Assembly: GCA_021234155.1 (NCBI GenBank)
Contig: JAJEKV010000010.1
Span: 20,185,418 to 20,249,417, forward strand
DNA: 64,000 nt
Source: Isoetes taiwanensis
Lineage: Eukaryota; Streptophyta; Lycopodiopsida; Isoetales; Isoetaceae
Reading direction: 5' to 3'
Numbering within the stretch: the first letter of the stretch is position 1; each line of letters opens with the position of its first letter. Shown piece after piece: positions 7,653 through 46,901 of this stretch. The notes under the pieces were generated by a model. It ran no database searches and was not told the DNA's origin. It worked only from the letters and a program-made list of their open reading frames with translations. Both the position numbers and the translations under genes were made by a program.

Positions 7653-8009
7653 ATGCTCATCACAGCTACACCCGCACAACAGGAGGCACGCAGGCAGGAG
7701 CTTGTCAGGGTCAGAGGCATTCGCCACCAAGGGGGTGCCACAGGATTGGTTCGGGGCAGGATGCACATTTTTCGCCAGCCTGCTACTGCTGCAGACCCCG
7801 CAGCCCCAACCGCAGCTGAACGTGGCCCTGCTTCTGCTTCTCCTACCACGACCCCCCCTTCTCCTGCTCCTACTCCTACTCCTGCTCCCTCACGACCCAC
7901 GCCCTCTCAGCCACATGCTGCCTTCGCTCCATCTACTTCTCACTCAGCCTCTGCTTCCCATCCTCCCCCCGCGACTCAGGCTGCACATACCACGGCTGCT
8001 GACAAATAG
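7653..8009 (+). pseudogene. LINE-A ORF1, C-terminal fragment
   Basis: The residues 'QQEARRQELVRVRG' and 'GGATGLVRGRMHIFR' match the ORF1 end of LINE-D ('QQASRRQQLTQVRD', 'GGAAGLVRGKLRIFR'), followed by a Pro/Ala/Ser/Thr-rich tail and a stop immediately before ORF2, as in LINE-D. This is the end of the nucleic-acid-binding ORF1 protein of the element. The N-terminal part is absent, so it cannot make a complete product. Confidence 0.75.
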
Positions 8010-8012
8010 GAA

Positions 8013-8900
8013 TTGTGCCTCCGGGTTGTCTCATGGAATTGTCGAGGCTTCCCTTGGCAGAAGGGGGACAGTCTCAACTCCATGGCAGCCGATATGGATA
8101 TCATCTTTCTCATGGAGACATGGGAGCATGCTGGGCACAGGCTACCTGATCTGCCAGATTACCAACATTTCTCGGTCTTCAATACCTGTATAGGACAGAG
8201 GGGTCATGGTGGGGTTGCTTGCTACTACCGGACAACCTTGGCACATTCGGTTACCCTCCAGAAGACAGACAGACACAACCGGTACTTGTGGGTTCGTGTG
8301 CATAATAGCAGTGGCAACCCTCTTTTTCTGGCCGCCTGTTATTTCCCTCACGCAGAGAGCACCTTCTATCGCAGCCACTCCGATGCGGATAGGATGGACT
8401 CTTATGTCGATCTATATGATGACATACAGCAGCACAAGCATTTGGGTAGGGTCGTCCTTCTTGGGGATTTCAATGCACGGACAGGAGTAGAGCAGTCCAT
8501 GAGACTTGATCCCCTCGCTGACGATGTCCTGCAGCTACGTCCCGCATAGGCAACCTGGCCACGAGCATCGGATGACAGCCAGGTCACTCGCTTTGGCAGA
8601 CAATTGCTCCTACTATGTGGTATTTTGACTTGATAATTTGCAACGGTGTGTCACAATGGCCCGCTTCTCGCAAGTGCACATGCAGACAGGACAATCAGGG
8701 GGGAGGGTCTAGTGTGGTGGACTATGTGCTCATAGTTGCGCAAGATATGCATCTCATCAGTCGTTTCGGGGTGGGGCACAAGCCGGTCGGGATGAGGAGG
8801 TCGATTCGAGATCACCTCCCACTTTATTTGGACATGGTTTGGCAAGTGCGCGGGAACCCCCACTATACCGACCCCTCGCCATCCTCGGTTTGCGACTAGA
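8013..8900 (+). pseudogene. LINE-A ORF2, AP-type endonuclease domain
   Basis: The frame opened at 8013 contains the exonuclease-endonuclease-phosphatase fold landmarks: 'VSWNCRGFP' near the start, 'FLMETWEH' (metal-binding Glu), 'GGVACYYR', 'ACYFPHAES' and 'LLGDFNARTG' (catalytic Asp/Asn). A stop falls at about 8547, after which matching sequence continues in another frame to the Asp-His end of the domain near 8810. In the family this domain nicks the target DNA to prime reverse transcription. It is not intact here. Confidence 0.8.
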
Positions 8901-9289
8901 TTATGGCGGCGGCTAGGACTACGTATCTGCCGAGATGCTCATGGGCGCCACTGCCCGGCAATTACTGCGGACCCCCACACTAGAAGCGTGAGCCAGACCG
9001 GTTGACCGCTATTACGGGATGCGGCGGGCGGGTGCTTTGGCGGACTTCCCCCCCCCCCGCCCCGCCCCGGCGTCGCCCGCTCGGGGGCGGCAACATTTCA
9101 GCGTAACCGATGGTTTGATGCGGAGTGTAAAACGCGGCGCCGGCTCCGTCACGATTACGGATCGGTACCGGCTTGCGAGGCCACCACACGATCTTGCGCC
9201 CATCGAAGGAGACAAAGTAGCGGTACCTTACCGAGCATCGTCGGGGAGATGTTGACTTTCTTTGGACACTCATCTTGAACCTTTTGGCG

Positions 9290-11245
9290 CGAGTGCTTGA
9301 AGGCCAGCCCGACCCTCGAGGGGACATCACACCGGGCGGTGGGAGCGTACTTGCGGCAGCTCTATGACCCACCGAGGGGGCAGCGTCGCCCATACCCCCG
9401 CCGGGATGGCTCCCCATTAGTTTCGCGGAGGAGGATGTTGTGGAGAGCACCTGCTTGGCTGGCTAATGGGAAGGCGGTGACCTCGATGGTATCTGCGGCC
9501 TTGAGGCCCGTGGCCGGTGCGATCCTTACTACCATTCAACGAGCATTACGGGGAAGGTTTCCCCAGACAATGGACCAAGCGGGGTTGTCCCCATTCACAA
9601 AGGCGGGCGACCCCACCTGTCCGGCCAATTCCAGGGACGATCATGGTCGATTCGGTATTTGCCAAACTGTTGGGTGGCATTCTCGGCGATGGAGTTGACC
9701 CCTTTGGGCAGAAGGCGGCCGATGTCGCGAGCCCTCACACAAGCGGGGCTTTAGACCCCGCCACTCAGCGATTGACCATATCTTTGCTTAATGCGGGCGA
9801 TTGAAAACAAAAGGAATCATCGGGCGGGACTTGTATTCTTTGCATTGTGGACGCTGAAAGGCTTTTTGATCTGGTCCCGGGGAAAAGCTATGGGCTAGAT
9901 CTGCGTCAGGCAACCCGCCGATTTGCAAGGTGAATGCCATATCTGGTCGTATGAGAGTTGTTTTGGCGGGGATGCAGCCGACGGGCCGAGCATTCAAAAG
10001 AGTGGTATCGGGTCCGGCGGGGCTGCCCCTCTCACCAACACTTTTGGCCTCTACATTGATCCGGTTAGAGCCTTGGCTTCTGCGAGCATGGGGGATGGCA
10101 TACGACTTTTGCACCGGGTCATCGCCGGCTCATCTATGCGGACGATGTTGACCTTCCGCCCACACCCCAGTTTGCTATGCGGTCTCATCCGGATGCCCTA
10201 GACACATTACGTGGGGCTACGGACATACGCGTGAATTTGGCCAAGACCGGGGTGGTTCTCATATCCTCTTTGCGCCACCCCACGCCTCCTGCACTCACAT
10301 ATCGGGGACAGCCTGTGGAGGTCACGCCCACCTACAAGTACATAGGGTGGAGTTCCCTCCTCGCTCTGTTGGGGGCGCCCATCCGCTTGCGGGTGACAAA
10401 GAAGTTGGAAAACAGCTTTATGCCACCTTGAGAACAATAGTCACCAGGTGAGCTCTATGATTGGGGCCATCGGTCACATCTGTTTGGGCAATCGGGTCGA
10501 ACTGCCCTTCATGACGGGTCGAGGTTTGGGGCCCGGTCGTCTCTTTGGTGACACGGAATGACTTGGAGCGGTGCGAGAAGGCATTTTTGGCACGGGCACT
10601 TGGGTGAAACCTTCGACCCCCTATCGGTCTCGCTGCAGAGCTGGATTCTTGCCGCCGGCTGGCAGCCCCTGATAGACACATCGTCTATTTTGAGAAAGTG
10701 GTTAATATGGGTGATGCTCGGCTCCGACTTTGGCTTCTGGCTGTGGCAATGGGCCCGCAGCCGCTCGGGGGCATGTTGGAGGGTAAGAGAGATCAGTGGT
10801 TCGCCCGGATGGAGCGTCGCGAGGAGCCGCAGTGCGTCTGCGAGGTGGACACAGAGGCCGATCGTGGCGGCCTGCTTGGGGAGTACCTAGGACGCTTGCT
10901 TCCTTGGCAAGCTCACGGGACCCGGCTCTAGAGCAGTCAAAGCGGCCCATTACAAGGAGCACATCAACCCGTGTTAGCTCGGGGCCCGCAACTCTACTGC
11001 GTTCCGGTACGCCCCTTGAAAAAGCCTTGAGACTCATTGCCTCCATTCGCGCCGGGTGCCCACCATCGCCGCATCGAGGCAGGCGGTGGATTGGGGAGCC
11101 CCGTAGGAGCAGGCTCTTTGGTCTTTGTCAAGCGGGTGCCATTGAGGATGAGTCTCACACTTTCGAGTTGCCTAGCATTGATCGGATCCAGGGCGGATCA
11201 CGGCTCCCTTTAATGGGAGGACTTGCCCCTACATTTGCTGGATGA
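9290..11245 (+). pseudogene. LINE-A ORF2, reverse transcriptase and C-terminus, heavily mutated
   Basis: Alignable to LINE-D only in pieces and in shifting frames: 'YLRQLYDP' (about 9346), 'LANGKAV' (9460), 'VDSVFAKLLGGIL' (9645), 'YKYIGWSS' (10335), 'LVNMGDARLRLWLLAVAMGPQ' as a mixed-frame match near 10698, 'IASIRAG' (11035) and 'CQAGAIEDESH' (11127), the last from the C-terminal zinc-knuckle region. Multiple frameshifts separate these blocks and the catalytic motifs are not preserved. No functional reverse transcriptase is possible. Confidence 0.75.
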
Positions 11246-11560
11246 ACACACCGTCGATGCGTGCTCGGGGTCATACATTGAGGAGGTACTAGATCGCAAG
11301 CTCACCTTTGCCCCTTTGGCTGCCCGTGATCGAGGGCACTACTAAAAATCTTGGTGCATGAGTGTATATATTTGTGTGTTTTTGTATTTTCTATATTGGA
11401 ACAGCTTGTCAGCAGGCTGATTGCTGCCACGGTTTTTCCCTCGAAAAGCCTTTGGGGCGGGGGTTTTTTAATCCGGGTAGTAATCCGCTTGCTGCGCTTT
11501 TGTATTGGGTCCCATAGACCGATTGGTCTCCGTGGACGATAAAAATACCTTCCTTCCTTT

Positions 11561-12085: not shown

Positions 12086-12117
12086 AACCACGATTCCATT
12101 ATTTTGAAATTATTCCA
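12086..12117 (+). repeat. Left terminal inverted repeat of the 9.3-kb element
   Basis: Begins AACCACGATT and ends ATTATTCCA. It pairs with the reverse complement of 21369-21400 at 29 of 32 positions; all three differences are C/T or A/G transitions. Confidence 0.8.
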
Positions 12118-12140
12118 TCATTTTGAAATTATTCCATCAT
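12099..12140 (+). repeat. Subterminal tandem repeat at the left end
   Basis: The 20-base word 'ttttgaaattattccatcat' is present twice in tandem from inside the left terminal repeat, with a third partial beginning. The right end has the equivalent word once. Subterminal repeats of this kind are commonly transposase-binding sites in DNA transposons; that role is inferred here. Confidence 0.6.
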
Positions 12141-12436
12141 TGTGACAACCCCAATTTCAACAATGTGGAATTGCATGTAAATACTTTTTATTATCAGCCT
12201 TAATTCTAACAGGTCTCAAATTACAAAACACTTATCACAAGCCAGTATTCCACATTCAAGTAGATGTAACTCAAGTAGATAATCACAAGCTAGTATTTCA
12301 CATTCAAGTAGAGTAAGATACTCATATACTGAAAGTAAGATTACAATGAAATCACGAAGACAATGAAAATGCACTGAAAGTAGGATTACAATGAAAGTAA
12401 GATTCACATCATAAGATACTCATGAACTCTCGTACT

Positions 12437-14706
12437 TTATTTTGCTTGTTCGGCTATCTTCTCTAGTGACTTCAGAACTTTATCCTTCACAGAGATTGGA
12501 ATCTTCATGCACCCCTTTCTCGGATCCACCTTGCCCTTTTTGGGGTTCCATGACATCAACGCGGATTTTATTTCCACCCATTGGACCGGAACACTTGCAT
12601 CATACTTCCATTGCTTATTAAAACAATCTTTGTAGCGCTCTTTTTCAGTAATGACTCCTTTTCCACTTACTGGATGCCACCACTCCACACGCACCTTGTT
12701 TCTGTTAGGGTTATTAGCTTCCCTACAAACATTCGAGATGGTATACCCAACCAAATAGGATAAGTATCTTCATCTAATGGCCTGGCGATCAAATATTGGT
12801 CATCCTTCAAATCCATCTTAGGATCATATGGAGCAAGTCCATAATACTTGGGATGCTCTTTTCTCGGTCCAACATAGTGCTCTTCATCCTCTTCCACATC
12901 CTCTTCAGACTCCTCTGTCATCAAGTGGATCGGCTGCTGATCAGGTTGGAATTGACCATGGTCGAGCCTCCATCGACTTTGAGGTAGCCAACCCTCTCGA
13001 AGGACGCTACTACTTGTGTCCAAACTCCCTAAAAGTATATGAACTTCATTCCAATAATTTACAAGTGCTTCATTGCACGCTCTTCTCTCTGGTGCTATGT
13101 GTTTACCTACTAAGGATTTCTCCCAGTACTTTATATAATCCATTATCCCTTCCATAGTCTGTTTGTAGTCCTTCACTTCTCCTAATGGTTTCATAGCTTT
13201 AGGCTCCCTCGTCAGCACCATTGGTTCATCTGCCACATCCTCTTTCCAAATCAATATATCCTTATCTTCGGTTTCCACACAGGATCTCCAGCCCTCATCT
13301 TGTATTGCATTATTGGCTTTCTATTCTTCACCCAAAACCTAAATTGCAATGGAGCACTATGCCCAATAAGGTTTTCATGAACATAACCCTCTATGAACTC
13401 TTTCCACTCGGGGACTTCTTGTATCAATGAACCAATAGGAGGAGGTGAAGAACACTGCTTAAATAGCTCCAAAAGCCTCGGATAGGTGGTGACGTCACTT
13501 TTCTGCAATTTGATCCTATAATGCCCAAACATTGCATCAATGTCTTCGTGAGTGTGGCCAGGCATCAAGTAACCAACATAGACCATTTCAAACGCTCCAA
13601 CCCATGTAAGATACGACAAGTATGCAAACAAGTATCTATTTTTATTCTGGCCAGCACAATTGTCAAGTTGCAAGAGTAGCTTCTTGGGTAGTCGGCGCCT
13701 CGGTATTGGGTTCACATGAATTGAAGGTGCTGGCCCATTCATCCTTCCTATGGTTAAATCCTCTAGTTTCATGGGACCAATGTCATGCAATGCCTTGAAG
13801 AGATGCTGCAATGGCTTACAAGAATGAACATCTCCATTAAAACCATGTTCCAAATCGCGCAATGCTTTTACAATGCTACCAACATGGAAGTTTGGACCAT
13901 CACCCCATAATTCTAATGTAAAATGACCGTGATGCACTGCTCCCTGGCCATGAGTTATGAATCCAGCTAGTGATATTTGCAATGGAAAAGACCTATTCTC
14001 TGGTTCCATTGTAGACAAGCATCTCCACATCCAGTATGTTGATCGACATGACATTTGCTCCATCGTGTGAATTCTCATTTCCTTCCGAACCACTGATCTT
14101 TCCACCTCAAGTTTCGACTTCTCGAGCTTATCTAACAAATCCACGCATATATTGCACTTTGAGAAGTTGCTATATTGCATTCTTTTGACATCTGAAAAAT
14201 GCTTACTCCAGCGCTTGCTGAAGGCTGATTGTGAAATCTTGTCCACACCCATTTCCTCTAGAAGATTGTTGATCATTTGTAAAATTACTTTTTGTGTGAA
14301 ATATGCAGGCAACATTCGAACTACTTTCCTGCATCCCTCTTCATCAATCGCACTTTTGTGAGGCATACTCTCAGCATGATAGTTAACAAACTTCTCGAAT
14401 AAACTTTGAGCTGCAAGCACCCTGGGGGTTGTCCTCGCCTTTCCCCGATTACCATGCCAACCTATTTGAGCCCCCCTCTTTTGGTTTCGCCTTAATCGCC
14501 GCCATGTAGAGGCTGAAATACCTAGTATGGTTGTCACTGCACTGTTGCATATCCATTTGCCACCAATAGAAAATCCCGTGTTCCTGACATCAGGTGACGG
14601 CCCAAATGCATGCTCTATTATATTGTAAATATAAGTTTTTCTAGCGTCATGAGTTTTCTCCTTGTAGATTGATCGGGCTTCTACAAGTTTTTCACTGTGA
14701 ATCTAC
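12437..14706 (-). pseudogene. DUF7869-like transposase-like gene, 3' portion, frameshifted
   Basis: On the minus strand an open frame runs from about 14706 (just after a possible acceptor 'tttggtag') to 13251. It begins with residues 'HSEKLVEARSIYKEK' and includes the block 'ISASTWRRLRRNQKRG', a Lys/Arg-rich DNA-binding-like stretch. The diagnostic region is 'LLLQLDNCAGQNKNRYLF' followed by 'GYLMPGHTHEDIDAMFGH', the two conserved blocks of DUF7869 proteins, whose Asp and Glu/Asp residues look like those of an RNase H-fold DDE nuclease. A frameshift near 13265 moves to the frame at 12667-13278 (acidic, 'EESEEDVEEDEEH'), and a second near 12745 moves to 12437-12754, which ends with 'VRVEWWHPV...QWVEIKSALMSW', the usual C-terminal block of the family. 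Two frameshifts make it a broken gene unless they are sequence errors. A transposase function is inferred from its position at the element end and its motifs. Confidence 0.75.
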
Positions 14707-14849
14707 CAAAGCAGTTGTTGGGGCAGCCACAATCCCCCCCCTGACGGCTTGCATGGTCTCTTCATTGCAGTTGTTAGTATCTTTCACAGTCCGCACCTTT
14801 TCCTTTCTCTTCTTCCTCTTCAAGAAATTGTAGGCCCTTCTTTCTGGTG

Positions 14850-15403
14850 GATACATCCAAAGGAGGTATGGAAGGAATGTCATTTTCATCCACCACCACA
14901 TTATTTTCTCCCACACACTCAATTCTTTAAAGCATTCCTTTTCCTATCATCTCAATGGAGTCCACTGGCTAGAGCAACAAGGCTGGCAACTCTAAACCAC
15001 TGTTGATATTATTGCAAGCATAGCAGTGTCTGTCCTTCAACTCAACACTGAAGTTATGAAGCTGTATTGAGGAAATGGAGACTCCCACAAAGTCATCACC
15101 AATAGTCTATCCATTATAGCAGTGCATAGGATCCCATAGTATAAGCACACCTTCACCAACAATTCCTCTATTGCACTGATGATGCAAAATCACTTTCTCG
15201 TCCTTCCATGTTAATCTGGAAACTACCATTCTTCTTTCCTCATTAGCACTAGCTGGGTTTTTAATATTTTCTGCATTTGCTTCAGGTGGCTGCTCATTCT
15301 TATTTGTATGATCTCTTCCACATCCATGTAATCAGCATCATTCTTCTCTGCTCGAGGTTCTTGGTCACAGAGTTCCCCAGCAGTAGCTTCATGAGAAATC
15401 TGA
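14850..15403 (-). pseudogene. Upstream coding region of the DUF7869-like gene
   Basis: Minus-strand coding continues upstream. A good acceptor 'tttctaattttcag' at about 15404 opens a frame with 'ISHEATAGELCDQEPRAEKN' and a heptad-like 'SSHLKQMQKILKTQ'. In another frame (about 15220 to 14980) lies 'SRLTWKDEKVILHHQCN', 'GEGVLILWDPMHCYNG', an in-frame TAG, then 'DFVGVSISSIQLHNFSVELK' with a Cys-Tyr-Ala-Cys pair. The second part is in frame with itself over about 75 codons, so it is very likely real coding sequence with one stop and one frameshift. The exact exon structure linking it to the main exon is not certain. Confidence 0.5.
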
Positions 15404-15571
15404 AAATTAGAAAAAAGGTTGAGGAAAACATAGTGTTGTATGCAATAACAATAAATGAAATATCTATACAATGCCTACACTGCGCTATGCGTGACAGTGC
15501 GCGTGACACGTATGGACCATAATTTTGTAAAAAATATAAGAAAATTATATTAATTTACAAAATACAGATAT

Positions 15572-15588
15572 GTCGCGCTAGGCGCGAC
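15572..15588. repeat. Palindrome site 1, GTCGCGC-TAG-GCGCGAC
   Basis: Perfect 7-bp arms around a 3-base spacer. It lies between the DUF7869-like upstream exon and the plus-strand unknown gene. Member of the element-specific family with core TCGCGC-TNN-GCGCGA. A degenerate relative (TGCGC-TAT-GCGTG) sits about 90 bp to the left at 15480-15494. Confidence 0.85.
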
Positions 15589-15734
15589 TCATACAGAAGC
15601 ACCCCATTTGGACACGTCACCAGATATCCCATTTCGTAGCACATTTCCAATTTCGTATTTGCTGAATCAGTACAAATATCATTTCCTCATTTCAATCTCT
15701 GCAATTTGTCTTCTCAATAGGCTGTGTAACCGTT

Positions 15735-16331
15735 TTGGTACATGTCGATGCTACCAACCGTGGACATGTGCATGAGCGAGGCTTGGCCTTGAGCCTCACC
15801 AAAGCCCGCGACAGGGCACTTCAGAGAGATATCTCGGAAGCAACACTCTTCCAGGATTTCACCAACATGCTGAGGAGGTTCGGCAATCTCCTCCCTGTCT
15901 CTGAGGAGAGAGATGGATGTGGAAGTATGGAGCCGAGAGTGGCAGGCTTAACAGAAGCCCAGTTTAATGCCGAGATTGCAGATGTAGTCCTCCATGCAGC
16001 TGCAATTATCGACATAAAATTTGTTTTGACCCATTTCCTAATCCTCAAACCTGGGCAGAAAGACTTGTTAGAGAGTCTAAGGACCCACCATTCTGGAATC
16101 CTGGAGGCCAAGATGAACAGCCTCCTGATGATCACAAACATGGATCCAGATAGACTGGATTACATTGTACAGAGGACAGTAGTAATATTGATCCTGCACC
16201 ACTGCTACCAGAATAGCTTTCATAAAGCTCAGATGTATATATTTTTTTGGAATAACAATTTTTGTTTCACAATTCTTTCTAGTTGTTGTGTTCTTCTCGC
16301 GCTGGGCGCGAGTCTTTTATTATCGCGCTGA
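15735..16331 (+). CDS. Unrecognised element gene, one open exon
   Basis: An open plus-strand frame of about 198 codons begins with a TTG at 15735; a plausible splice acceptor 'cttctcaatag' lies just upstream at 15720, so the true start may be in an earlier exon. Residues include 'HVDATNRGHVHERGLALSLT', 'LFQDFTNMLRRFGNLL' and 'MNSLLMITNMDPDRLDYIV'. I do not recognise the family. Coding is likelier on this strand than on the opposite one because the frame is rich in charged and helical segments. After about 16190 the sequence turns hydrophobic and AT-rich, and palindromes 2 and 3 fall at its end, so the real exon may stop near 16190 and the remainder be intron or 3' UTR. It lies inside the 9.3-kb element, head-to-head with the DUF7869-like gene. 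Confidence 0.45.
   Translation: MVHVDATNRGHVHERGLALSLTKARDRALQRDISEATLFQDFTNMLRRFGNLLPVSEERDGCGSMEPRVAGLTEAQFNAEIADVVLHAAAIIDIKFVLTHFLILKPGQKDLLESLRTHHSGILEAKMNSLLMITNMDPDRLDYIVQRTVVILILHHCYQNSFHKAQMYIFFWNNNFCFTILSSCCVLLALGASLLLSR
16296..16312. repeat. Palindrome site 2, CTCGCGC-TGG-GCGCGAG
   Basis: Perfect 7-bp arms around a 3-base spacer. It lies 8 bp from site 3. Confidence 0.85.
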
Positions 16332-16339
16332 GCGCGATA
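16321..16339. repeat. Palindrome site 3, TATCGCGC-TGA-GCGCGATA
   Basis: Perfect 8-bp arms around a 3-base spacer. Paired with site 2 in the region after the unknown plus-strand gene. Confidence 0.85.
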
Positions 16340-16566
16340 GATTAATATGTTCTATAAAATTCATTTCATAGTTAGATTTATTATACATATTACATTTAGT
16401 TAATTAACCCAAAAACCCACTACAGAGTCACTTCAAATCAAGTTCTTGCCTGGATGTATGCGACTTTTGTTTCAACAAGGACAAACCATGGCAGTTACAA
16501 AAGAAGACAATTCTTTTACCAACCAGGCTCATCATGAGCAGGTGGCACGGTCACTCTCTTAACTTC

Positions 16567-17396
16567 CTAAACACCATGCTCTGGAACCCATACAAGGTGG
16601 ATGACAACCTTATATATAATAGGATAACTTCTAGCAGAGGCCATTGCAACTCCCTGCAACCAAGGATCGAGTTCCAAGCCCCTCTGCAGGCATCTATAAA
16701 TTTCAGAATAGTTCATGGAGCAAATGATAGAATCCACATATTCTGGAACCGGTGGCAGGGTAGATCGACAATTGCAATTAGAACAGGATGTGATCGGATT
16801 GCGGGACATGACTAATGCGCTACCACTGAGAGGTACTCATATTTATAGCACGAGCAATACAGTAGCAGCATTATTGTGTAGACATACGAGTATGCATATG
16901 AGTAGCACATGAATAGATGACACGTGAAATATGTTACAGTAGCTACAGTAAAGAGCAACAGTACTACAGAAAATTTTTCAGTACATACCTCTTTGAGTAG
17001 TGTTGTTGGCCAAGCCAAGAAACTCCCTACTGATTCTCCAAGTGTTTCTGCTCCTGCATGTGGTCTTTGTAATGGATGAGTGATAGCATAGCACTCTGTC
17101 AATCTGATTCTAATATAATCAGGTTCCAAGGGCACTCCATGGCATGCTGTAGTTGGTGCCATGTTATCAACAATGCCCTTGCCAATGACATCTTTCTTGT
17201 TTTCTGCTAACAAGAAGCATGCTTCTCCAATGGAAATTTTCATTTCTCCTGCTTGATTGTTCATTTCCTCGACTTGCAAAGCTTTGTTAATTAAGTTGCA
17301 TAAGTCATGGCACCTCAATCCACTCACTTGATAGAGAACTACCTGAGATTCGGAAGCCTGATCGAGCGCTTCAGCAAGCTTCCTTCTTGGCGACAT
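16567..17396 (-). CDS. Unrecognised element gene, two probable exons
   Basis: Exon 1 starts at ATG 17396 ('MSPRRKLAEALDQASESQVV') and runs to about 16989, where 'aaagag|gtatgt' is a good donor. It contains 'ISIGEACFLLAENKKDVIGK' and 'PLEPDYIRIRLTECYAITHP'. A second open stretch, about 16809-16567, contains 'CSNCNCRSTLPPVPEYVDS' and 'LELDPWLQGVAMASARSYP' and ends in TAG at 16567, after which similar composition resumes in frame, so the stop may be a mutation. I do not recognise the family. It is divergent from the ParB-like gene and shares its upstream spacer. It could be an accessory gene of the element or an upstream part of the DUF7869-like transcript on the same strand; the sequence does not decide. 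Confidence 0.5.
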
Positions 17397-17983
17397 CCCA
17401 AATTCGAATTAAAACACTGCAATGAAAACACAGTTCTTATAGAAACACAAATTCTATGATCCAATGCGAGGCCAAGAACACAAATTAAGTGGCGGGTATT
17501 TTTAAAATAGACGGTTAGTTCAGGCCAATGATTGAAAAGTAGTTGGGGAAAGGGATATTCGCGGGCGACGGGCTAAAAGATTTTAAATTTTAAATTGCAG
17601 GCGGGATTAATCTTCTTGTTTAGCTAAACAAGGATAAGGGCAGTACAAACTTTCAATGGTGGGCGTCTATTCATTAATTGTTTGTACGACCCGTGTAATA
17701 ATCATATTTTCTAATTTCAATGTAATTTGAATCTCATTTTTTAATTCCTAATTTCTTCCAGAAGTTTTGCTTCGACCGCCTTCCGAAACCGACGCAATCT
17801 TCTTGAGCGATCTCTCAAGCGATCCAAATTTTTGTAACGCCACCTGCATTTCGAGCTATCATACTTCATTTCCGGCCTGTTTACAACAATTCCGACTCGA
17901 TTTGAGCTTCTCGCGAGCTTCCGGAGATTCACCCGACCTTCTCGAGCTACAACAGAGTTCAACAGAGCTTCAAGCACTTCGAT
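17397..17983. promoter_or_regulatory. Divergent spacer between two element genes
   Basis: About 590 bp separate the ATG at 17396 (minus) from the ATG at 17984 (plus). The left half is AT-rich and the right half (17760-17980) is richer in C and G with 'ttctcgcgagcttc', typical of a 5' UTR/CpG-containing leader. It must contain promoter activity for both genes if they are expressed. No specific TATA box can be assigned with confidence. Confidence 0.4.
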
Positions 17984-18322
17984 ATGGCAACTAAAGGTTA
18001 GTATGTTCGAGTTCTTAATGGAGGAGGAACTCTGTGACTCTATTTTTATTAGGTTTTAGAAACCTTCGCTTGTGTGTTTAACTTTATTAATAGATTTAGA
18101 AACTCTGAGACTCTTTGATTAACTCTGTCACTCTGCAACCTAGATTTGATTAGATTAATGTTACCCTGCATCTCTGCTACTTGGCTTGTATTTGTTTGCA
18201 GCTTATTCTTTGTTTGATTATGTGTTCAGGGTTTTCTACTTAGTCTGAATTGAATCTGCAATGCTCTGTGATTATAATTCCTAGTATCTTAATCTTCAAT
18301 TGTAATCATCAGGGAAGCAGGT

Positions 18323-18798
18323 TACGCTTCCTTGTGCTATGATTTTCTTTTTTTATGAAGCTTACTCTCTTTGATGTGTTCCTATGATGAAGCCTTATGT
18401 GGAGTGCCGTTGGTCTATGGATTTCTCGCGCTTAGCGCGAGAAGTTCAGATTCTATCGCTCTTAATAAGCGTATAGGGTTGTTGAGGTCATAGTCGAGGT
18501 CAACCCTTCGGGAGGACGGTAAGAGAGTAGGAATGTGAATTCTTGTGCTACACGCTACAAGCGGGTTATGCTTCCTTGTGCTATGATTTTCTTTCTTTAT
18601 GAAGCTTACTCTCTTTGATGTGTTCCTATGATGAAGCCTTCTGTGGAGTGCCGTCGGTCTATGGATTTCTCGCGCTAAGTTCAGATTCTATCGCTCTTAG
18701 TAAGCGTAAGAGTAGGGTTGTTGAGGTCATAGTTGAGGTTAACCCTTCGCGAGGATGGTAAGAGAGATGGAATGTGAATTCTTGCGCTACACGCGAGT
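18323..18798 (+). repeat. Tandem duplication, unit 244 bp, inside the ParB-like gene intron
   Basis: Two copies (starting near 18323 and 18567) share 'cttccttgtgctatgatttt', 'gatgtgttcctatgatgaag', 'ggatttctcgcgct' and 'gttgttgaggtcatag' at a constant offset of 244 bp. The first copy contains intact palindrome site 4. The second has lost nine bases that form most of the right arm. Each unit ends in a decayed palindrome ('cttgtgctacacgc' and 'cttgcgctacacgc'). Confidence 0.9.
18423..18443. repeat. Palindrome site 4, TTCTCGCGC-TTA-GCGCGAGAA
   Basis: Perfect 9-bp arms around a 3-base spacer, the longest of the family. Its tandem-duplicate counterpart at 18667-18678 keeps only the left arm. Confidence 0.88.
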
Positions 18799-18853
18799 AG
18801 TCACATTCCATCTATCTTACTGTCATGGATCATTCGACTCACGCTACCCGCGA
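18782..18853. repeat. Two degenerate palindromes in the intron
   Basis: 18782-18796 reads TTGCGC-TAC-ACGCGA and 18839-18853 reads TCACGC-TAC-CCGCGA. With 18543-18557 (TTGTGC-TAC-ACGCTA), these look like the same family after mainly CG-to-TG or CG-to-CA changes, as expected from cytosine methylation and deamination. Confidence 0.6.
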
Positions 18854-20092
18854 ATTCTAAAACATTGCTCTTAGAATTTATAGACTTGTCGATGTTGGTC
18901 AAGTTGCTTAATACAGAAATACTTTAGCAATGCCTAACTTGATTATTTATTTTACAGCTTCCAAGAGAGCACTAGTTACATCATCTTCTGCACCATCAAA
19001 GAAACCCAAGAAGGACCCCAAGGTAGTACAAGAAGAGGCAGGGAAGATAGATCGAACTCTTGGCATAAAGCTAATTGATGACGACAGAGTCATAACATGC
19101 GAGCTAAGTCAGGACTTGCCAGAGGCAGTATTTGTTGAGGGGTCTGAATGGTATGTTACTGTGAGCAGGGCAGGCTCAAAGTATGACGTAGTCCTGCATT
19201 CATGGGAGAACAAAGGGCGGCCTTCAAAAAAGTAGGGTTGATCCTTTCATGCGAGGAGCTTGATGATCACATCTGTGTCTTCATAATAGAGAAGACCGTA
19301 AAGAAAAATCTCAGCATTTCCAAATACAATGCAGGTATAGATGGATTCAGGCCAGATAAGACAGCAGACGGTGTTACAAAGTATGGCTGGCCCATTGAAG
19401 GCTCAAATCATACAGTTCGTTCTGTATGTGAAGGAGTATCTGTCCAACGAAGTTTGCAGAAGAAACCATCTTCAAGCTTCTACATATCTGGTTTTGGTGG
19501 TAGTGGCGATGCACTTGAGTCAGAAACTTTGCCCCTAATACCTTTGCCAAAGCCAGTGAAGGAAACAGATATTGAAAAGAAATCAAGGGTTGATGCTGTA
19601 GACAAGCTTATGAAATTCAAGCAATGGTATCCACTTGGTTTGGATGTCACAAAAAGGATAGCTATTGACAAGCTGATTAGATCTCCTAGAGCATCTTTCA
19701 TATCTAGGATCTTTGATCCCAAACATGCCCCGAGGATACAAAAGTCCATGGTTGAATATCCCACCACAGTACCAAATCCAGCTGACGTTCTACCATGGGA
19801 CTCAGTCAATGACAAGCCATACCCATGGAAGACATGGGATGACCTAAGGAAGAGCGATACGGTGCGCTACATCGTCATTGATGGGCAGCACTCAGTTGAG
19901 GCAGCGAAGGCTCTTATAGAGAAAATGCATAAGATAGGTGCCAAGGAGTACAGGGAGCACTTCAGTTACAGGCAATGTCGAATCCTTAGTCATTACACGC
20001 CTCAACTTGCACTGACTACAATAAGTGCAGACTTGAACACAACCACAAGGGTGGTACAATACAACTCGTAAGTGCCTTTGTTTCTTATTAAC

Positions 20093-20154
20093 CTTAGTCG
20101 CACTACGCGCGAGACCCAACATTGGTCTGCAGTCTCGCGCGTAGCGCGACTAAG
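20093..20154. repeat. Paired palindromes forming a larger inverted repeat
   Basis: Two 23-base arms (20093-20115 and 20132-20154) are inverted copies with a single A/G difference and a 16-base spacer. Each arm itself contains the 15-base palindrome core (GCaC-TAC-GCGCGA variant, and TCGCGC-GTA-GCGCGA). They lie in the 173-bp intron between exons 2 and 3 of the ParB-like gene. A third site follows at 20181-20195. Confidence 0.9.
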
Positions 20155-20180
20155 CTTTTTACTTTCGCTATTCGGAATGC

Positions 20181-20195
20181 TCGCGCTACGCGCGA
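20181..20195. repeat. Palindrome site, TCGCGC-TAC-GCGCGA
   Basis: Perfect 6-bp arms with a TAC spacer. It is the third member in one short intron. Confidence 0.85.
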
Positions 20196-20418
20196 AATGG
20201 AGATCTATATAGTACTAATGGTTTTATATTTTTATCTCAGACCATATCCCATGCAATTGAGGCAAGCTAGAAATCAATGGATTGAGCTTGGCCGTCCAAT
20301 TTCAAAGAGAAAGAAGCAGGAGGAGAAGAAAGACAACTCTTACGAGGAAATGATTAAGATGATCAGCAAGGTCATCATACAAAAGAAGAAGCATGTTGCA
20401 GATGAGGAAGAGGAAACT

Positions 20419-20549
20419 GGAAGAAGAAGAAGAAGAAGAAGAAGAAGAAGAAGAAGAAGAAGAAGAAGAAGAAGAAGAAGAAGAAGAAGAAGAAGAAGAA
20501 GAAGAAGAAGAAGAAGAAGAAGAAGAAGAAGAAGAAGAAGAAGAAGAAG

Positions 20550-20578
<29 letters not shown>
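20419..20578 (+). repeat. (GAA)n microsatellite inside a coding exon, about 160 bp
   Basis: About 53 uninterrupted GAA/AAG/AGA units. Read in the frame of the upstream exon it gives poly-Arg, in other frames poly-Glu or poly-Lys. Upstream 'HVADEEEETG' suggests an original short acidic or basic run that expanded. Poly-Glu, poly-Lys and, on the other strand, poly-Ser and poly-Phe ORFs here are artefacts. Confidence 0.95.
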
Positions 20579-20580
<2 letters not shown>

Positions 20581-21368
20581 CCAAGGAAGGCCCATCAGAT
20601 TCCTACCACATAGTGTTTAGTCTGATGTTCACAAATTGTTGAGCCATCTGAAGGACAGAGCGAGCATTGGTATATGGTCATCCATGCTGCGAAACGATAT
20701 ATTAGAGATTAAAGAAGTTGTTCCAGAGATGAAGAACTTTGATTTCTATATTATATTAGATCAAGATAATTGTGGGATTGTTCGTCGACCACAACATAGA
20801 GCAAAGAATATCTTCATCAAGAATATACATAAGGCCTTGGAGGTGATAGAAGGATTTCCAGAAGAGCAGATATGTTTGGTGGATGATGATCCCATCAAGT
20901 GTTGCTTGAACGTAGACAGCAGCATAAATCCTCCGACATGGCATGTAGATGAAGAGAATTGGGTGCCAGCAGAGACACTACAGATGTTTGAGTCCCTCAT
21001 ATCAGCCCCTATAGTGCCTGCTTTCCTAAGTGTTAGACCAGATTTGCAAGGAAAAGCAAACCCTACAGACTATGATCTGGTTGTAAAAAATTACTGTCAA
21101 TGAAAATGTACTCAGATTTGTAAAAATACTTGTACATATACATAATTTATATGAATATATACAAGATGTTTTTTAATGCAAAATTAGTTTGGCCTTGACT
21201 CTTTCCAGTCTACACTATACCTTTTTGCCTTGGTTTTGTTGTCACTAATTTCTAACACACTCAATAAATGGTGCAATATTGCCACCAATTCATATTCAAA
21301 AAAAATACATGACACAATTTCAAGCTCAAAACATAGGGAAAAAACCCGAGGTAAAAAAAAATGAACAG

Positions 21369-21400
21369 TGGAATAATCTCAAAATAACGAAATCGTGGTT
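21369..21400 (-). repeat. Right terminal inverted repeat of the 9.3-kb element
   Basis: Ends ...AAATCGTGGTT on the plus strand. It is inverted with respect to 12086-12117, 29/32 identical, and followed directly by GTAA at 21401-21404. Confidence 0.8.
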
Positions 21401-33529: not shown

Positions 33530-35660
33530 CCTTATTTATGGCGGAGGAGTTGTTGGTAGACCCTGATACTGCTCTCGAATGGTTGGCCCGCTAGTTGCAG
33601 CCGACCGGTGCATGTCTCATATAACTTGTACACCGCGTTCTGCAGTTCGGCAGGGCCGTCTAACTGCTGCAACCTTGCCCACAGCTTTTCCCAAGGCACA
33701 ATGTAAAAAGCATTGTCGAAGTCTACGAAGCAGCAATACAGATCTTGCCGACGGTTCCTGCTATCCTCAACCAGAGTCCGTAGCATAAAGATATGATCTA
33801 TGGTTGAGTGCCTCTGCCTGAATCCTGCCTATGTGAGTGCTCGCACTCCTGCTGCCTCTTCCCATCCTGTCAACTGCCGCTCGAGGATCCCGGAAGGAGC
33901 TTTGCAAACACTAAGCTGATCGTAATGGTTCGGTAATTGGCCGGACAATGCGGGTCTCCTACTTGTAGATTGTGACAACCCTGCTAGTGGTCCATTGTGG
34001 GGAAAAACCTTCCCGCAATGCCTTGTTGAACAAGTCGGTCAGTACCGGTGCCATGGATGGCTCTACACACTTGAGTAACTCTGCCTGCATGCCATCAAGG
34101 TCTGGTGCTTTTCCATTGGCTAGATGTTGCAGCCCCTGTGACACCTCCGCCTTTGTGATTTCCAGTACCGGGCCCTGCTGGGAGGTAATGCCATCCGTGC
34201 ACCCTTAGGGCTGTAGAGCTATTGTAGGTATTGCCCCCACTAGTCTGGAGTGATATTTCCTGTGGGCAACACTGGCCTCCTGAGCATTCTCCACCAAAAG
34301 GTCCTGGGATGACGTTCTAGGAGGAAGAACATTCCTGTTGATGGGCCACAATGTACCTGCCTTTCTAGCCTTAAGGAAAGTGCGATATTGCTTGACTGCA
34401 TCCGAGCGTAGAGCAGGGTCTCTGACTTGGCAGAGCCAATGTTTACATTCTTTGCACTCGGCATCGAACCACTGGTTATGCGGAAAGGTTGTAGCTCTTG
34501 AGGTTTGCCGAGGGCGACTTCTCCCAAAACACCTCTCTGCAACAGCCCCGAGGACGTCAATGAGCCTGCCTGCCTACTGCTCTAGCGTTGAGCATTGTGA
34601 GATGCTTGCCAGATCCTCCGTAAGCATCTGGGAGTAAGTAGGAGCACCTCTGAGTTGGGGAATACTATGAGGTGTTGGACAGACGTCTGGAGCAACCTGC
34701 TAAGCCAGCTACAAGTAGAGCGACAGGTGGTCTGAGTCCACCTCCTCATCCCTACCAGCCATTCCCACTCGAAAATGTTTAACAAAATGCATGTCCTGCT
34801 CGGCCACCAAAACATAATCTACCACACTGGACCCACCTCCTGGTTCTCTTGCCTGCAAGTGTTGGCTAGAGGACCACCACTATGCTAGTCCATTGCAAAT
34901 CACTAGGTCAAAGATACTGCAGAGCAGCAACAGCTGCCTCCCATAGCGCGAGACCTGAATGTCAGCTGATGCCCGTGGCCAAGCTCCTTCTGAAGGGCTC
35001 AGCTGCAACACATCATCTGTGGGAGGGCCAAATCTCATCGGTTGTTCCGTGCCAGTCTCCAACGAGCATGGCCCTACCCTCCTGTTTGTGCTGTTGTATG
35101 TCATCGTATAGATCGACATAGGTCTCCAACCTATCCACACCCAGATGGTTGTGATCGAAGTTGCTCTCGGCATGTGGGAAGTAGCAGGCCGTCACAAAGA
35201 AAGAGCTACCACTGCAATTTTGCACGCGCACTCACAAGTACCTGTTATGTTTGTCTGTCTTACACAGGGAAACTGACTGTGGCAGGGCTGTCTGGTAGTA
35301 GCATGCAACCCCTCCGTGCCCCCCTTTCCTGTGCGTTCGTTGAAGACGGAGTAGCGATGGTATCCTGGCAAGTCGGGTAGTCTATGTCTAGTGCTCCCAT
35401 GTTTCCATGAGGAAGATGAGGTCCATATCAGCGGCAACTGAGTTGAGACTGTCCCCCTTCTGCCATGGGAAGTCCCCATAATTCCAAGAGACCATGCGCA
35501 GGCACAATTCACTTTTGCTGGCAAGAGCTGCAGCAGCAGGTTTGGCGGTGGTAGCACAAGGGATGGTGGTGGAGGTGGAGGCGGCATGTGGCATGTTGGC
35601 AGTGGCAGGTGAGGCCATTGTAGTAGGACGTGCAGTTGGGGTCGCGGCAGAAGGGCCTTG
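33530..35660 (-). mobile_element. LINE-C, 3'-truncated non-LTR retrotransposon copy
   Basis: On the minus strand: Ala/Pro-rich ORF1 end (35650-35520), endonuclease start 'MVSWNYGDFPWQKGDSLNS' (about 35500) with 'DLIFLMETWEH', 'VTACYFPHAES' (35195), 'YVDLYDDIQQHKQ' (35120), then reverse-transcriptase region with 'LANGKAPDLDGMQAELLK' (34130), 'FNKALREGFSPQWTTSRVV' (34040) and 'CCFVDFDNAF' (33720). Homology to LINE-D stops at about 33530, before the catalytic Asp-Asp box, so the last third and the 3' tail are missing. LINEs are normally truncated at the 5' side; loss of the 3' side implies a later deletion or recombination. Several frameshifts. The 5' end abuts dispersed repeat R. Confidence 0.82.
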
Positions 35661-42611: not shown

Positions 42612-43439
42612 CAGTGCACGAATGAGTTGGCCAAGCAGCAGAGATTTCAACAGGAGCTAGGCTCCTGACTCAGGGCAGCAGAGGCCGCAACACGGGGCCA
42701 GATAAGCACACATGCCCCACAGCCCACAAGTCACCAAACACGCAGACAGACACCACCTGCTCCATCTCGCACACCACACCGCCCTTGCTGTGAACAGCCA
42801 ACACACTCTAGACAACAGGGATCACCTGCTGGGACAGCTAATGTTGCCCCGCGACTCAGTGAGCAGCAGGAGCAGGGCTGCCGACATCGTAATGTGGTGG
42901 TACGTGGACTCTCGGAGGAGGCAGGAGAGGATCTCACCAAGCGCATCCAGGATCAGATCCTATCTCGCATGGCATTTCAGACTACAGTATACATTATTCG
43001 AGCAAGCCGCCTTGGGGCTCAACACACAGATCGCCCGCGCGTTGTCACCTTCATGGTGGCAAACATGCGAGTGCGTGAGGCAATTCTGCGTCAGAGTAGG
43101 CAATTGAAGGGGACTACTTTGTATGTCGATCAGGATCTTACTCCGATGCAACAAGCATCCCGCCGGCAGCAGCTGACTCAAGTCAGGGACGTCTGTCGTC
43201 GAGGGGGTGCTGCAGGCTTGGTCCGAGGCAAGCTTCGCATTTTTAGGTCGGCGCCTGCTGAGGTCACCGATGCAATGCGTCAAGCTACTGCCACTCCTGC
43301 TACTGCCACCAGTACCCCTACTGTATCTCCTGCCCCCGCTGCTCCAACTGCTCCTGCAACTGCTGCTCAGGCGCCGCACACTGCTCTCCCTGCAACCAGA
43401 ACAGATCATCGAGCGTCTACATCAAATGCCAACAAATAG
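42612..43439 (+). pseudogene. LINE-D ORF1 (nucleic-acid-binding protein), one stop, N-terminus missing
   Basis: In one frame: 'ELAKQQRFQQELG' (coiled-coil end), a TGA at about 42667, a Pro/Thr/Gln-rich linker, then from about 42880 the structured domain 'VVVRGLSEEAGEDLTKRIQD', 'RPRVVTFMVANMRVREAIL', 'TTLYVDQDLTPMQQASRRQQ' and 'GGAAGLVRGKLRIFR', and a Pro/Ala/Thr-rich tail ending at 43439. The pattern (RRM-like fold, then 'YVDQDLT' and a basic helix) is that of LINE ORF1 chaperones that coat the RNA. The last 180 codons are open. The stop codon of ORF1 is within about 15 bases of the ORF2 start. Confidence 0.8.
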
Positions 43440-43454
43440 GAACTGTGCCTCTGG

Positions 43455-44695
43455 ATGGTATCTTGGAACTGTCGGGGCTTCCCTTGGCAGAAAGGGGAGA
43501 GTCTCAACTCTATTGCACCGGATATGGATCTCATTTTCCTCATGGAAACATGGGAACATGTAGGGCATAGACTGCCGAACCTCCCAGGCTATCTGCATTT
43601 CTCGGTGTTCAATGAGTGCACAGACAACGAGGGCATGGCGGGGTTGTCTGCTACTATCGTGCAACCTTGGGGCACTCAGTCTTGCTGCACAAAACAGACA
43701 GGTACAATCGCTACTTGTGGGTGCGCGTGCAGCATGACAGTGGCAGCATTCTCTTCATAGCAGTATGCTACTTTCCACATGTCGAGAGTAACTTTTATAA
43801 CACTCATTCAGATGTGGATAGATTGGAGCCCTATGTCGATCTATATGATGACATACAGCAGCACAAACAGTTGGGCAAGATTATGTTGCTTGGCGACTTT
43901 AATGCACGCACAGGGGCCGAGCAGTTCCCAAAATTTGAGCCCCTGGCAGAGGACGTCTTGCAGTTGAATCCTATAGAGGTGGCTTGGTCAAGGATATCAG
44001 ACGACAACCATATTTCGCGCTATGGCAGGCAGTTGCTGTTGCTGGGTAGTATCTTTGACCTGGTTATTTGTAATGGGTTGGCACAATGGCCATCTTCCAG
44101 CTGCTGCACTTGTAGACAGGAGAACCAAGGGGGCGACTCCAGTGTGATGGATTATCTGCTGGTTGAGGAACAGGATCTGCACCTGGTTACCCATTTTTCC
44201 ATTGGAACAGACACTCGGGACGAGGAAGTGGACTCGGACCACCAGCCCATGTTTGTGCATCTCCATTGGCAAGGTCCCCGTGCATCTACTGCCTCAACAC
44301 CCCAGGTGCCCCAGCTGCGCCTGGACTACGACCGTGCAGGGACCTATGCCCAGCTGCTTGAGCATGACCTGGCAGGACTGCTGCAACTCCCCACACTTCA
44401 ACAGCAATCTGCTCAGCTGACTCACCTGCTTCTGACAGCTGCTGAGAGATGCTTTGGGAGAGGCCGCTCACGGCGAACCTCGGGTGCTACCACCTCCTCC
44501 CGCAACAGATGGTTCGATGATGATTGTCGGGAGCTCAAACGCACACTCCGGCAAATCACTGATTCCACCTCTTGCCCACAGGCCATCAGCCCTTCCTCAA
44601 GAACAAGAAAGCCAGATACCTCGCAGAGCATCAGCAACAGATGTTTGGTCTCCTGGATCGGCACCCCAAGACATTCTGGAGAAGGGTTTTGAGCA
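43455..44695 (+). pseudogene. LINE-D ORF2, AP endonuclease domain, frameshifted
   Basis: Starts 'MVSWNCRGFPWQKGESLNSI' with 'DLIFLMETWEH' (metal-binding Glu). It shifts frame near 43620 and continues as one long frame of 358 codons with 'GHGGVVCYYRATLGHS', 'RYLWVRVQHDSG', 'AVCYFPHVESN', 'MLLGDFNARTGAE' (catalytic Asp, Asn), 'SIFDLVICNGLAQWP' and 'EEVDSDHQPMFVHLHW' (final Asp-His). All catalytic motifs of the exonuclease-endonuclease-phosphatase fold are present. In the family it nicks the genomic target so that its 3' OH primes cDNA synthesis. Confidence 0.88.
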
Positions 44696-46734
44696 AGACT
44701 GCACAACCCACAGGGAACATCACCTCGGAGCAATGGGTACAGTACTTGCAACAGCTTTACGACCCGTTCGAGGGCCGAACACCAGTCCCTCCACAGATAG
44801 GCATGGCTCTGGTCATCACAAATGGGGATGTCATCATGGGCCTGCAACGTCTAGCTAATGGGAAGGCAACAGATTTAGATGGCATGCAGGCGGAACTACT
44901 GAAATGGACTGGGCCTCCACTGGTGCCTGTCCTCACGGCATTATTCAATAAAGCATTGCAAGAAGGCTTCCCTCCGCAATGGACTACTAGCAGAGTTGTG
45001 TCCATATACAAAGCAGAGAACCCTCACTGCCCGGCCAACTATCGTACTATTATGGTCAACACTCTCTTTGCAAAACTGTTGGCTGGCATCCTTGAGCAGT
45101 GGCTGACAATATGGGCAGAGGAGGCAGATGTGCGAGCTCTCACACAGGCGGGTTTTCGGCCCGGGCATTCCACCATTGATCATATCTTCACTCTGCGCAC
45201 ATTGATTGAGGATAGTAGGAATCACCGACAAAACTTGTACTACTGTTTCGTGGATTTCGCAAAAGCTTTTGACACAGTGCCCCGGGACAGGTTATGGGAC
45301 AGACTGCAGTAGCTGGGGACCCCCCTTGACTTGTAGAATGCAGTATATAGGCTATATGAGGCATGCTCAGGTCGTATCACATCGTCAGGATAACTGGTAA
45401 TCAGTAGTATTGGAGTGCGTCAGGGTTGCCCCCTCTTCCCCACACTCTTTGGCCTATACATTGACCAGCTGAAGATTGGCTCTCTGAGCATGGAGGTGCG
45501 GGCGCCCATCTCATGCATCACACAATCCGGCAACTCATATGTGCTGACGATGTCAACCTCCTGGCCTATACTCCAGAGGATGTGCAACGTCACCTGGATG
45601 CTCTTGACACTTTCTGCCGATTCACTGGCATGAGAGTTAACTTGGCCAAAACTAGGGTGCTGCTAGTTTCATCATCCCGTCAGCCAAGGGTTCCCTCATT
45701 CACTTACTAGGGCAAGATGTAGAGGTGGCTCCGACCTACAAGTACTTAGGGATCGAATTCTCTACTACCACCTATTGGGATGCTGCCATCAGGTTGCGGG
45801 TCACGGCAGGTTGGAAAGCACTATATGCCATGCAGAACAACAACCACAAGGCAGAGTTGTATGCCTGGGGCCACCAGGCACACTTGTTTCGGGCTTTGGT
45901 CGAGCCGGTCCTTTTGTATGGGCAGAAGTGTGGGGTCCGGTGATATCCCTCAACACCTGGAATGACCTCGAGAAGCTGCAAAAAGCCTTCTTGGCACGAG
46001 CCCTTGGGGTAAAGTCCACAATTCCATACCAGATCCTACTCTAGGAGACAGGTTTTCTACCCCTTCAACGGGCTGCATTGGAACGCCATATCATTTACTT
46101 CCAGAAGGTGGTCGCTATGGGTGATACACGTTTGCCCAACCTTGCTTTGGCCATGGCGATGGGTCCCCAACGCCTGAAAGCCTGCTGGAAGGACAAGCAA
46201 GCTCAGTGGTTCTCACGCTGGGGTGTACAGGCAAACAGATGCGTACATGTAAGGACAAAGAAAGATCACAAGGCCCTTAAGCTGTACCTAGATGCTACTT
46301 TCCTTCGCAAGCTCTGCGATGCAGATGCTCTGACGCACGTTAAGTTGGCACACTATCAGCAGCAAGTCAATCCTAGGCTCACGAAAGGCCCACACCAGTA
46401 CTTGTACACCCAGTTGTCCATGAAGAAGCGCATACTTATAGCTTCCATTCGCACGGGTGCACATCACCGCCGCATTGAGACAGGACGTTGGGCTCGGGAA
46501 GCACGAGAGCAAAGGCTTTGCCAGTGTTGCCACCAGGGCGCCATTGAGGATGAATGTCATGCCCTCCAGATCTGCCCAGCATTTGCCCATATCCGAGAAC
46601 GGTATGTTCGGTTACTAGTGCCTGGCCAACCATTGCATGAGTTATTGAATACGGCGTCAGTGGGTTTGCTGGGGTCATATCTCCAGGAGGTTATGGATGC
46701 ACGGACTCAGTTGTGTCCTCCGGGGTGGTATTGA
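44572..46734 (+). pseudogene. LINE-D ORF2, reverse transcriptase and C-terminal region, with stops
   Basis: The 246-codon frame at 44572-45312 holds the fingers and palm: 'LANGKATDLDGMQAELLKW', 'FPPQWTTSRVVSIYK', 'FAKLLAGILEQWL', 'QAGFRPGHSTIDHIFTLRTL' and 'CFVDFAKAFDTVPR' (first catalytic Asp). 'VRQGCPLFPTLFGLYID' follows after stops, then 'ICADDVNLLAY' (the Asp-Asp box) at about 45533, 'TYKYLGIEF' and 'LYGQKC'. The last 218-codon frame ends with 'CQCCHQGAIEDECHALQICP', a Cys-Cys-His-Cys knuckle. RNA-templated DNA synthesis is the family role. Five stops and two or more frameshifts disable this copy. Confidence 0.88.
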
Positions 46735-46901
46735 ACTCTCCTATACAATTGTACAGCGTGCCAGCATACTTATTACTGCTAAGGTTTTTCCCTCGAAAAC
46801 CCTTCGGGGCGGGGGTTTTTTAATCCTGTCAGTAATACGCTTGCTGCTCTCTTTTTGTTTGGGTCCCATAGGCCAATTGGTCTCCGTGGACGCTAAAAAA
46901 C

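Follow-up and report, generated by a model that had tools for sequence, protein, structure and literature searches.

Positions 12086-21400 of a 64,000-nucleotide stretch of the Isoetes taiwanensis genome (this whole stretch is called the window) constitute a 9.3-kb DNA transposon bounded by 32-bp terminal inverted repeats (TIRs). The transposon represents a strongly amplified, Sola-like lineage with conserved accessory genes, and the copy in the window is defective. The data are best explained by a defective copy of a large DNA transposon of the cut-and-paste kind, which behaves like the Sola-1 group and is probably one of its members; a rough probability of 0.8 was assigned to this reading. 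That the element is a mobile one was considered nearly certain. Its predicted genes (Table 1) are that of a DUF7869 protein, which very likely serves as its transposase; the gene B region; gene C; and gene D, a long gene divergent from the transposase, in which a HAD-phosphatase-like domain would be fused with a ParB-like region. The close prior art is the Sola1-1 element of Ectocarpus, which has a ParB-like gene.

Ends, target-site duplications and copies

The TIRs are identical at 29 of 32 positions and are directly abutted by GTAA, at exactly the coordinates that an earlier note, made from the letters of the window, had given. The probability of such a TIR pair arising by chance anywhere in 64 kb was about 1.3e-4 (a simple binomial estimate with the flanking GTAA left out). 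The genome (1,658,258,908 bases in 1,110 contigs) was searched with a 32-base pattern from both ends, with up to three mismatches allowed. Ends of the window family (F1) were found at 186 + 185 = 371 places, and the reversed control yielded 0. One hundred of the 371 places were listed, and 30 were fetched, including the window's own two. In the fetched ends, the repeat begins with AACC, and most run on into left-type or right-type family sequence. Their flanks differ, with two exceptions: L035 (C149) and L039 (C379) have an element end and flank in common, perhaps because of a duplicated or unmerged stretch of the assembly, and L041/L042 is a tandem pair with two left-type ends 165 bp apart on one contig (C640).

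Two further family labels were used: F2 for the C423 element and F3 for the C67 element. Exact 4-bp target-site duplications (TSDs) were present in 16 of the 16 end pairs examined (5/5 in F1, including the window; 1/1 in F2; 10/10 in F3), and the A+T content over these duplications was 78%. The four further F1 copies, recognized among the 100 listed places by facing ends less than 25 kb apart, had the duplications AAAG, GTAT, ATAT and AATT. The duplication extended to a fifth base in 0 of the 10 F3 pairs. Besides the 9.3-kb window element, sizes were 10-15 kb, with one F1 copy (C1031:10971554-10992181) measuring 20.6 kb end to end. This is roughly double the size of the others; as a guess, nested insertions might be the reason.

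For one insertion, an empty site was located. At C223, an F3 element (1286020-1298868) sits in gene C of an F1 copy. The C223 flanks, joined with one GTAG, are uninterrupted in the window, L072 and L075 at 94-97% identity, which demonstrates precise insertion with duplication. For the other 14 joined sites, no uninterrupted copy was found among the sequences examined. The nesting of F3 in F1 at C223 also gives a relative age. The earlier note had proposed that the element, with its 4-bp TSD, is the host transposon of a DUF7869-like putative transposase, and had suggested a search for empty sites and for further loci at which these ends and genes recur between other flanking sequences. The end pairs and the 371 ends bear this out; many such loci were found, and for one insertion of a related family the paralogous site is uninterrupted.

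Transposase, accessory genes and a distant lineage

The window transposase matched PF25273 (DUF7869) with E = 3.5e-40 and 138.1 bits, above the curated cut-off of 26, and that of the distant lineage described below reached 125.6 bits. The note's suggestion that DUF7869 is the likely transposase is supported. The blocks HDKMD, LQLDNCAGQNKN and GHTHED[IV]D are conserved between the lineages, and the second acidic block is given as LDNCAGQNKN. On this conservation of HDKMD, LDNCAGQNKN and GHTHED[IV]D, the protein is very probably a DDE/D-type transposase.

The window copy cannot make a normal transposase. Compared to the siblings examined, its open reading frame (ORF) is missing 81 coding bases in frame (27 residues, FLCVIHDKMDQQK...; 67 bases in L004), including the first conserved acidic block, which probably provides the first Asp of the catalytic site. 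The possibility of an intron at this point (residue 236) was considered and rejected: the 81 nt of the siblings have no GT start or AG end at the insertion point and are read through in frame as FLCVIHDKMDQQK..., so they are coding and missing from the window copy. In addition, a frameshift near 13270 puts the C-terminal part out of frame. Gene D is likewise damaged, with a shift of frame near 19230, where the sibling reads through, and a middle part of about 0.19 kb with (AGA)n, compared to about 1.9 kb in the C1042 copy. Part of the stretch missing from the window gene D matches the gene D middle in the distant lineage. The C1042 copy in turn is without about 0.37 kb of the ParB-like region. 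The window copy is therefore defective in both its transposase (deletion and frameshift) and its ParB-HAD gene (frameshift and deletion), and it probably moved in trans, if at all.

At least 167 matches to the transposase were found in the genome; by identity to the window, they form two tiers, one mostly above about 70% and the other at about 41-54%. The second-tier C423 element has ends starting AACCATCATT, a TATA duplication (with the element boundary placed at AACC by comparison) and a 15.4-kb body. Its homologues of the transposase (45%), gene C (38%), the ParB-like region (37-41%) and the HAD region (39%) have the order and orientation of the window. The C67 element (65371-77762) was read whole and contained homologues of the transposase, of gene C and of the ParB-like and HAD regions, in that order too; in both elements, protein identity to the window in aligned pieces was about 27-54%. 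The C423-type end pattern, with up to three mismatches, occurred at 1591 + 1625 = 3,216 places (control 0 and 1). From the 100 of these that were listed, the ten F3 pairs, 12.1-12.8 kb apart, were chosen, and further listed pairs were left out. If the 3,216 ends marked some 1,600 complete 12.3-kb copies, they would make up about 1.2% of the genome, which is an estimate and not a count. Three independent families were considered and rejected: F2 and F3 are sisters, 72-88% alike over DNA alignments longer than 450 bp. Between F1 and F2/F3, DNA similarity is confined to the transposase region, and what the distant lineage retains is the AACCA ends, the length of the TSD and the greater part of the genes. 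The left end of L080 is of yet another type, AACCACTATTCATTTATTTTGGGATTAT, which stands between the ends of F1 and those of F2/F3.

The ParB-like ORF had 141 matches in the genome. From the matches listed, with second-exon rows dropped, 86 transposase and 121 ParB-like places were used for pairing. Eighteen pairs lay no more than 15 kb apart, compared to 0.19 expected at random, and 17 of these were divergent, as in the window. The remaining pair, at C1034, has both genes on one strand with an element end between them and may represent two neighbouring elements. Within 15 kb of a listed end (88 ends were used, and 12 clustered ones omitted) were 19 of the 121 ParB-like and 23 of the 86 transposase places; that most places have no listed end is accounted for by the listing of 100 of 371 ends and by the fragmentary state of many copies. 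The earlier note had called the ParB-like gene and two others "cargo or accessory factors". The genes do travel together, and the word "cargo" understates the role of genes that are retained in lineages with 45% identity between their transposases. By sequence, the name "ParB-like" is weakly supported, as weighed below.

The ORF at 20621-21103 contains a NIF/HAD-phosphatase domain (PF03031, E = 2.5e-6) that exceeds the Pfam cut-off of 21.8 in both lineages (27.7 and 51.3 bits). Two relatives were read, and in both the domain comes after the ParB-like part with no change of strand, as if the two belonged to one predicted gene with the domain at its 3' end. The first motif of HAD phosphatases is DxDx(T/V). 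It reads DMNGV in C1042, NLNGV in C423 and DLNGV in C67, i.e. the second Asp is Asn in three of three copies and the first also in C423; the Asn at the second position makes phosphatase activity doubtful. At least 150 matches to the HAD region were found in the genome, many free of stops, and on four contigs, chosen as common to both lists, an F3 end and a HAD match lie 0.7-1.1 kb apart. Upstream, the string IDGQHSVEA is identical in F1 and the C423 relative against a background of 37% identity; it is not intact in the C67 copy. In the pieces scanned by profile, no methyltransferase domain was found. Searches of NCBIfam and PHROGs gave weak matches only, and collections of plasmid, phage, viral and prokaryote sequences yielded no relatives.

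Palindromes within the elements

GC-rich palindromes with the core CGCGCnnnGCGCG (up to one mismatch) number 7 in the window element, 9 in C1042, 9 in C423 and 7 in C67 (32 in all), with an expectation of 0.00-0.03 per element (first-order Markov) and reversed-control counts of 2, 3, 1 and 0. Exact cores number 6, 4, 4 and 3, respectively, versus 0 in each control. With two mismatches, the counts (12, 13, 12 and 9, versus 16, 11, 11 and 13 in the control) show no excess, as expected if only near-exact sites are real. At 28 other end loci (two overlapping), 5 cores were found in 42 kb inside the elements. In the sequence examined, which included L072, L070/L071 and L087/L088, the palindromes were found only inside elements. 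The CpG observed/expected ratio is 0.55 in the element and 0.54 outside, so CpG richness fails to explain them. The centre is CAG or CTG in 0 of 16 F1 sites and 13 of 16 F2/F3 sites, and T..A flanks the core in 14 of 16 and 5 of 16, respectively. All 20 single mismatches in the core, counted over seven sequences, are C>T or G>A. This is the pattern of methyl-CpG decay, and it is only suggestive because the core is so CpG-rich.

Some of the palindromes separate the transposase from gene B, others are placed where the B ORF ends or beyond it, and in F1 and F2 two proposed gene D introns also contain them. Because many are thus in proposed introns and between genes, and because such a palindrome folds as RNA too, they might be RNA hairpins of introns or untranslated regions, or a short palindromic repeat accumulating in the elements, and not protein sites; in C67, three of them make up a 42-bp tandem repeat that doubles as protein-coding sequence. 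This explanation is credible without being the probable one. The palindromes recur in partly matching places across lineages with no DNA similarity there, which argues against it, as does their absence from the remaining 54.7 kb of the window and from 42 kb of flanks at the other loci (0 cores in about 97 kb of outside sequence).

The palindromes could instead be sites for an element-encoded DNA-binding protein, with the ParB-like one as the first candidate, and binding may act in element recognition, gene regulation or epigenetic marking. We put forward tentatively, and on balance doubt, that they are parS-like binding sites of this protein. The elements would then have a self-contained eukaryotic ParB-parS-like module, itself no better than a tentative proposal, in which a ParB-HAD protein binds its own clustered CGCGCnnnGCGCG palindromes and marks, pairs, segregates or regulates the transposon; as part of the same proposal, the lineage-specific centre and outer bases might set specificity. 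By analogy, the bacterial ParB-parS system has in common with the elements the DGQH motif, which in gene D we take to be ParB/sulfiredoxin-like, and clustered palindromic sites in one replicon. It differs in that the sequence similarity is weak, ParA is absent from the profile matches of the pieces scanned, and the quillwort palindrome is unlike parS.

Table 1. Coordinates of features of the transposon copy in the window
Feature	Position	Strand	Remark
Left TSD GTAA	12082..12085	none	
Left TIR	12086..12117	+	side of transposase 3' end; same AACC junction at other pattern-fetched genomic ends
Second, subterminal copy of ATTCCATCATTTTGAAATT	12112..12130	+	95%; possible transposase-binding repeat
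Transposase C-terminal part	12667..13320	-	out of frame with core ORF in window copy
DUF7869 transposase core, putative	13251..14702	-	without 27 residues (FLCVIHDKMDQQK... region) that siblings have
Palindrome core CGCGCTAGGCGCG	15574..15586	none	
Gene B region ORF	15666..16331	+	model uncertain; function unassigned
Palindrome core CGCGCTGGGCGCG	16298..16310	none	end of B ORF
Palindrome core CGCGCTGAGCGCG	16324..16336	none	end of B ORF
Further gene B region ORF	16408..16815	+	model uncertain
Gene C	16812..17408	-	38% conserved in distant lineage
Gene D, proposed first exon	17984..17996	+	ATG GCA ACT AAA G|GTTAGT; acceptor before 18958; splice sites by eye
Palindrome core CGCGCTTAGCGCG	18427..18439	none	proposed gene D intron 1
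Gene D, ParB-like part with VIDGQHSVEAA	18958..20067	+	frame change near 19230 in window copy
Palindrome core, one mismatch	20099..20111	none	proposed gene D intron 2
Palindrome core CGCGCGTAGCGCG	20136..20148	none	proposed gene D intron 2
Palindrome core CGCGCTACGCGCG	20182..20194	none	proposed gene D intron 2
(AGA)n run	20420..20578	+	window about 0.19 kb, C1042 copy about 1.9 kb
Gene D 3' part, NIF/HAD-phosphatase-like domain	20621..21103	+	motif I region missing in window copy
Right TIR	21369..21400	-	side of gene D 3' end
Right TSD GTAA	21401..21404	none	

Elsewhere in the window, 7997-11545, 34865-35523 and 43427-46899 are copies of one dispersed repeat, which is probably a retroelement; most of their matching blocks are about 72-88% alike, and about 540 bp separate the end of the first copy from the transposon. 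Two hairpin-like inverted repeats were noted at 55651-56106 and 58552-58932, the second with 73-bp arms of 100% identity.

Classification and meaning

KDZ elements have 8-bp TSDs, in contrast to the 4 bp found here, and Ginger, IS481EU and IS3EU have a retroviral-integrase-like core; no rve match was among the Pfam hits of the window transposase. KDZ elements share with the quillwort element a giant, multi-gene constitution and are described from algae and fungi (PMC12477816). The termini of Ginger, IS481EU and IS3EU are given as TG..CA or TA..TA (PMC10045372), unlike the quillwort termini, AACC..GGTT.

Sola elements are described as having a DDD transposase, 4-bp TSDs, TIRs of 11-1124 bp, and sizes mostly of 2-9 kb with some above 15 kb (PMC10741241), and they have been reported in moss (PMC9033089). 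The TSD length in all pairs examined agrees with this, and the TIR and element sizes reported above fall within the ranges. In Sola1-1_Ec32 of Ectocarpus (21.5 kb), the transposase and a ParB-like gene are on opposite strands, and the latter was reported with a DNA methyltransferase domain (PMC12477816). By description, then, the quillwort element is like Sola-1 (Sola1-1_Ec32 and moss Sola1) in its probable DDD/E-type transposase, large size and opposite-strand ParB-like gene. It differs in having a HAD/NIF-phosphatase-like domain attached to the ParB-like part, and in its further genes and clustered palindromes; compared to known eukaryotic DNA transposons with a ParB-like protein, it showed no methyltransferase domain in the pieces scanned. 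The earlier note's statement that no described superfamily has this gene set was not sustained in view of the Sola TSD and of Sola1-1_Ec32.

Membership of Sola-1 is favoured, with moderate confidence. Several observations weigh against the reading as a whole. Membership is judged by TSD length, size and the accessory gene. The ParB-like assignment is weak by sequence: the best matches, to phrog_1033 (a ParB-like partition protein, E = 0.12) and DUF1015 (E = 0.09), are not significant, and they cover stretches with VIDGQHSVEAA. No homology was detected between gene B and the small gene at the same place in the distant lineage. Sequence searches of the PDB gave 0 matches or, in one case, no significant match, with the phosphatase UBLCP1 (E 0.83) listed among antibody chains. 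Finally, single-sequence AlphaFold2 models had mean predicted local distance difference test (pLDDT) scores of 33 and 37 and gave no usable fold in which the RNase H-like core proposed in the earlier note could be seen.

These points leave room for a new superfamily, in which DUF7869 and ParB-HAD elements would be separate from Sola and share the 4-bp TSD and ParB-like gene by coincidence. The link to Sola is by description; the accessory gene ends in a HAD-phosphatase-like domain versus the DNA methyltransferase of Ectocarpus; and a literature search found the word DUF7869 in no paper. We consider this unlikely, as Sola or Sola-1 is matched in TSD length, in size range, in the ParB-like gene on the opposite strand and in being present in a plant without seeds (moss). 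The several breaks in the window copy might also suggest host genes caught between the arms of a dead inverted repeat, with ends and genes not forming one mobile unit; this was rejected as wholly improbable, because the same ends and gene order recur in different flanks and all 16 pairs have TSDs.

In the main texts of the genome papers of I. taiwanensis (PMC8566536) and I. sinensis (PMC10541799), the terms "Sola" and "DNA transposon" are absent. In the search listings of one open-licence library, the lycophyte lineage, the HAD fusion and the palindromes were not found.

For the favoured Sola-1-like transposon, the following mechanism is proposed. The DUF7869 transposase would recognize the AACCA... 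termini and the subterminal repeats next to them, cut the element out and integrate it at a target cleaved with a 4-bp stagger, and the other genes would travel along; the window copy would have to be moved in trans.

With DUF7869 tied to exact transposon ends and a 4-bp TSD, the family can be treated as one of transposases, and the quillwort presents a large, multi-gene DNA transposon that has multiplied strongly in a lycophyte. For the puzzling ParB-like proteins described from algal and brown-algal transposons, the palindrome set suggests a role that can be put directly to the test. If true, a ParB-parS-like module could help to explain how a 12-kb, multi-gene transposon exists at perhaps a thousand or more copies.

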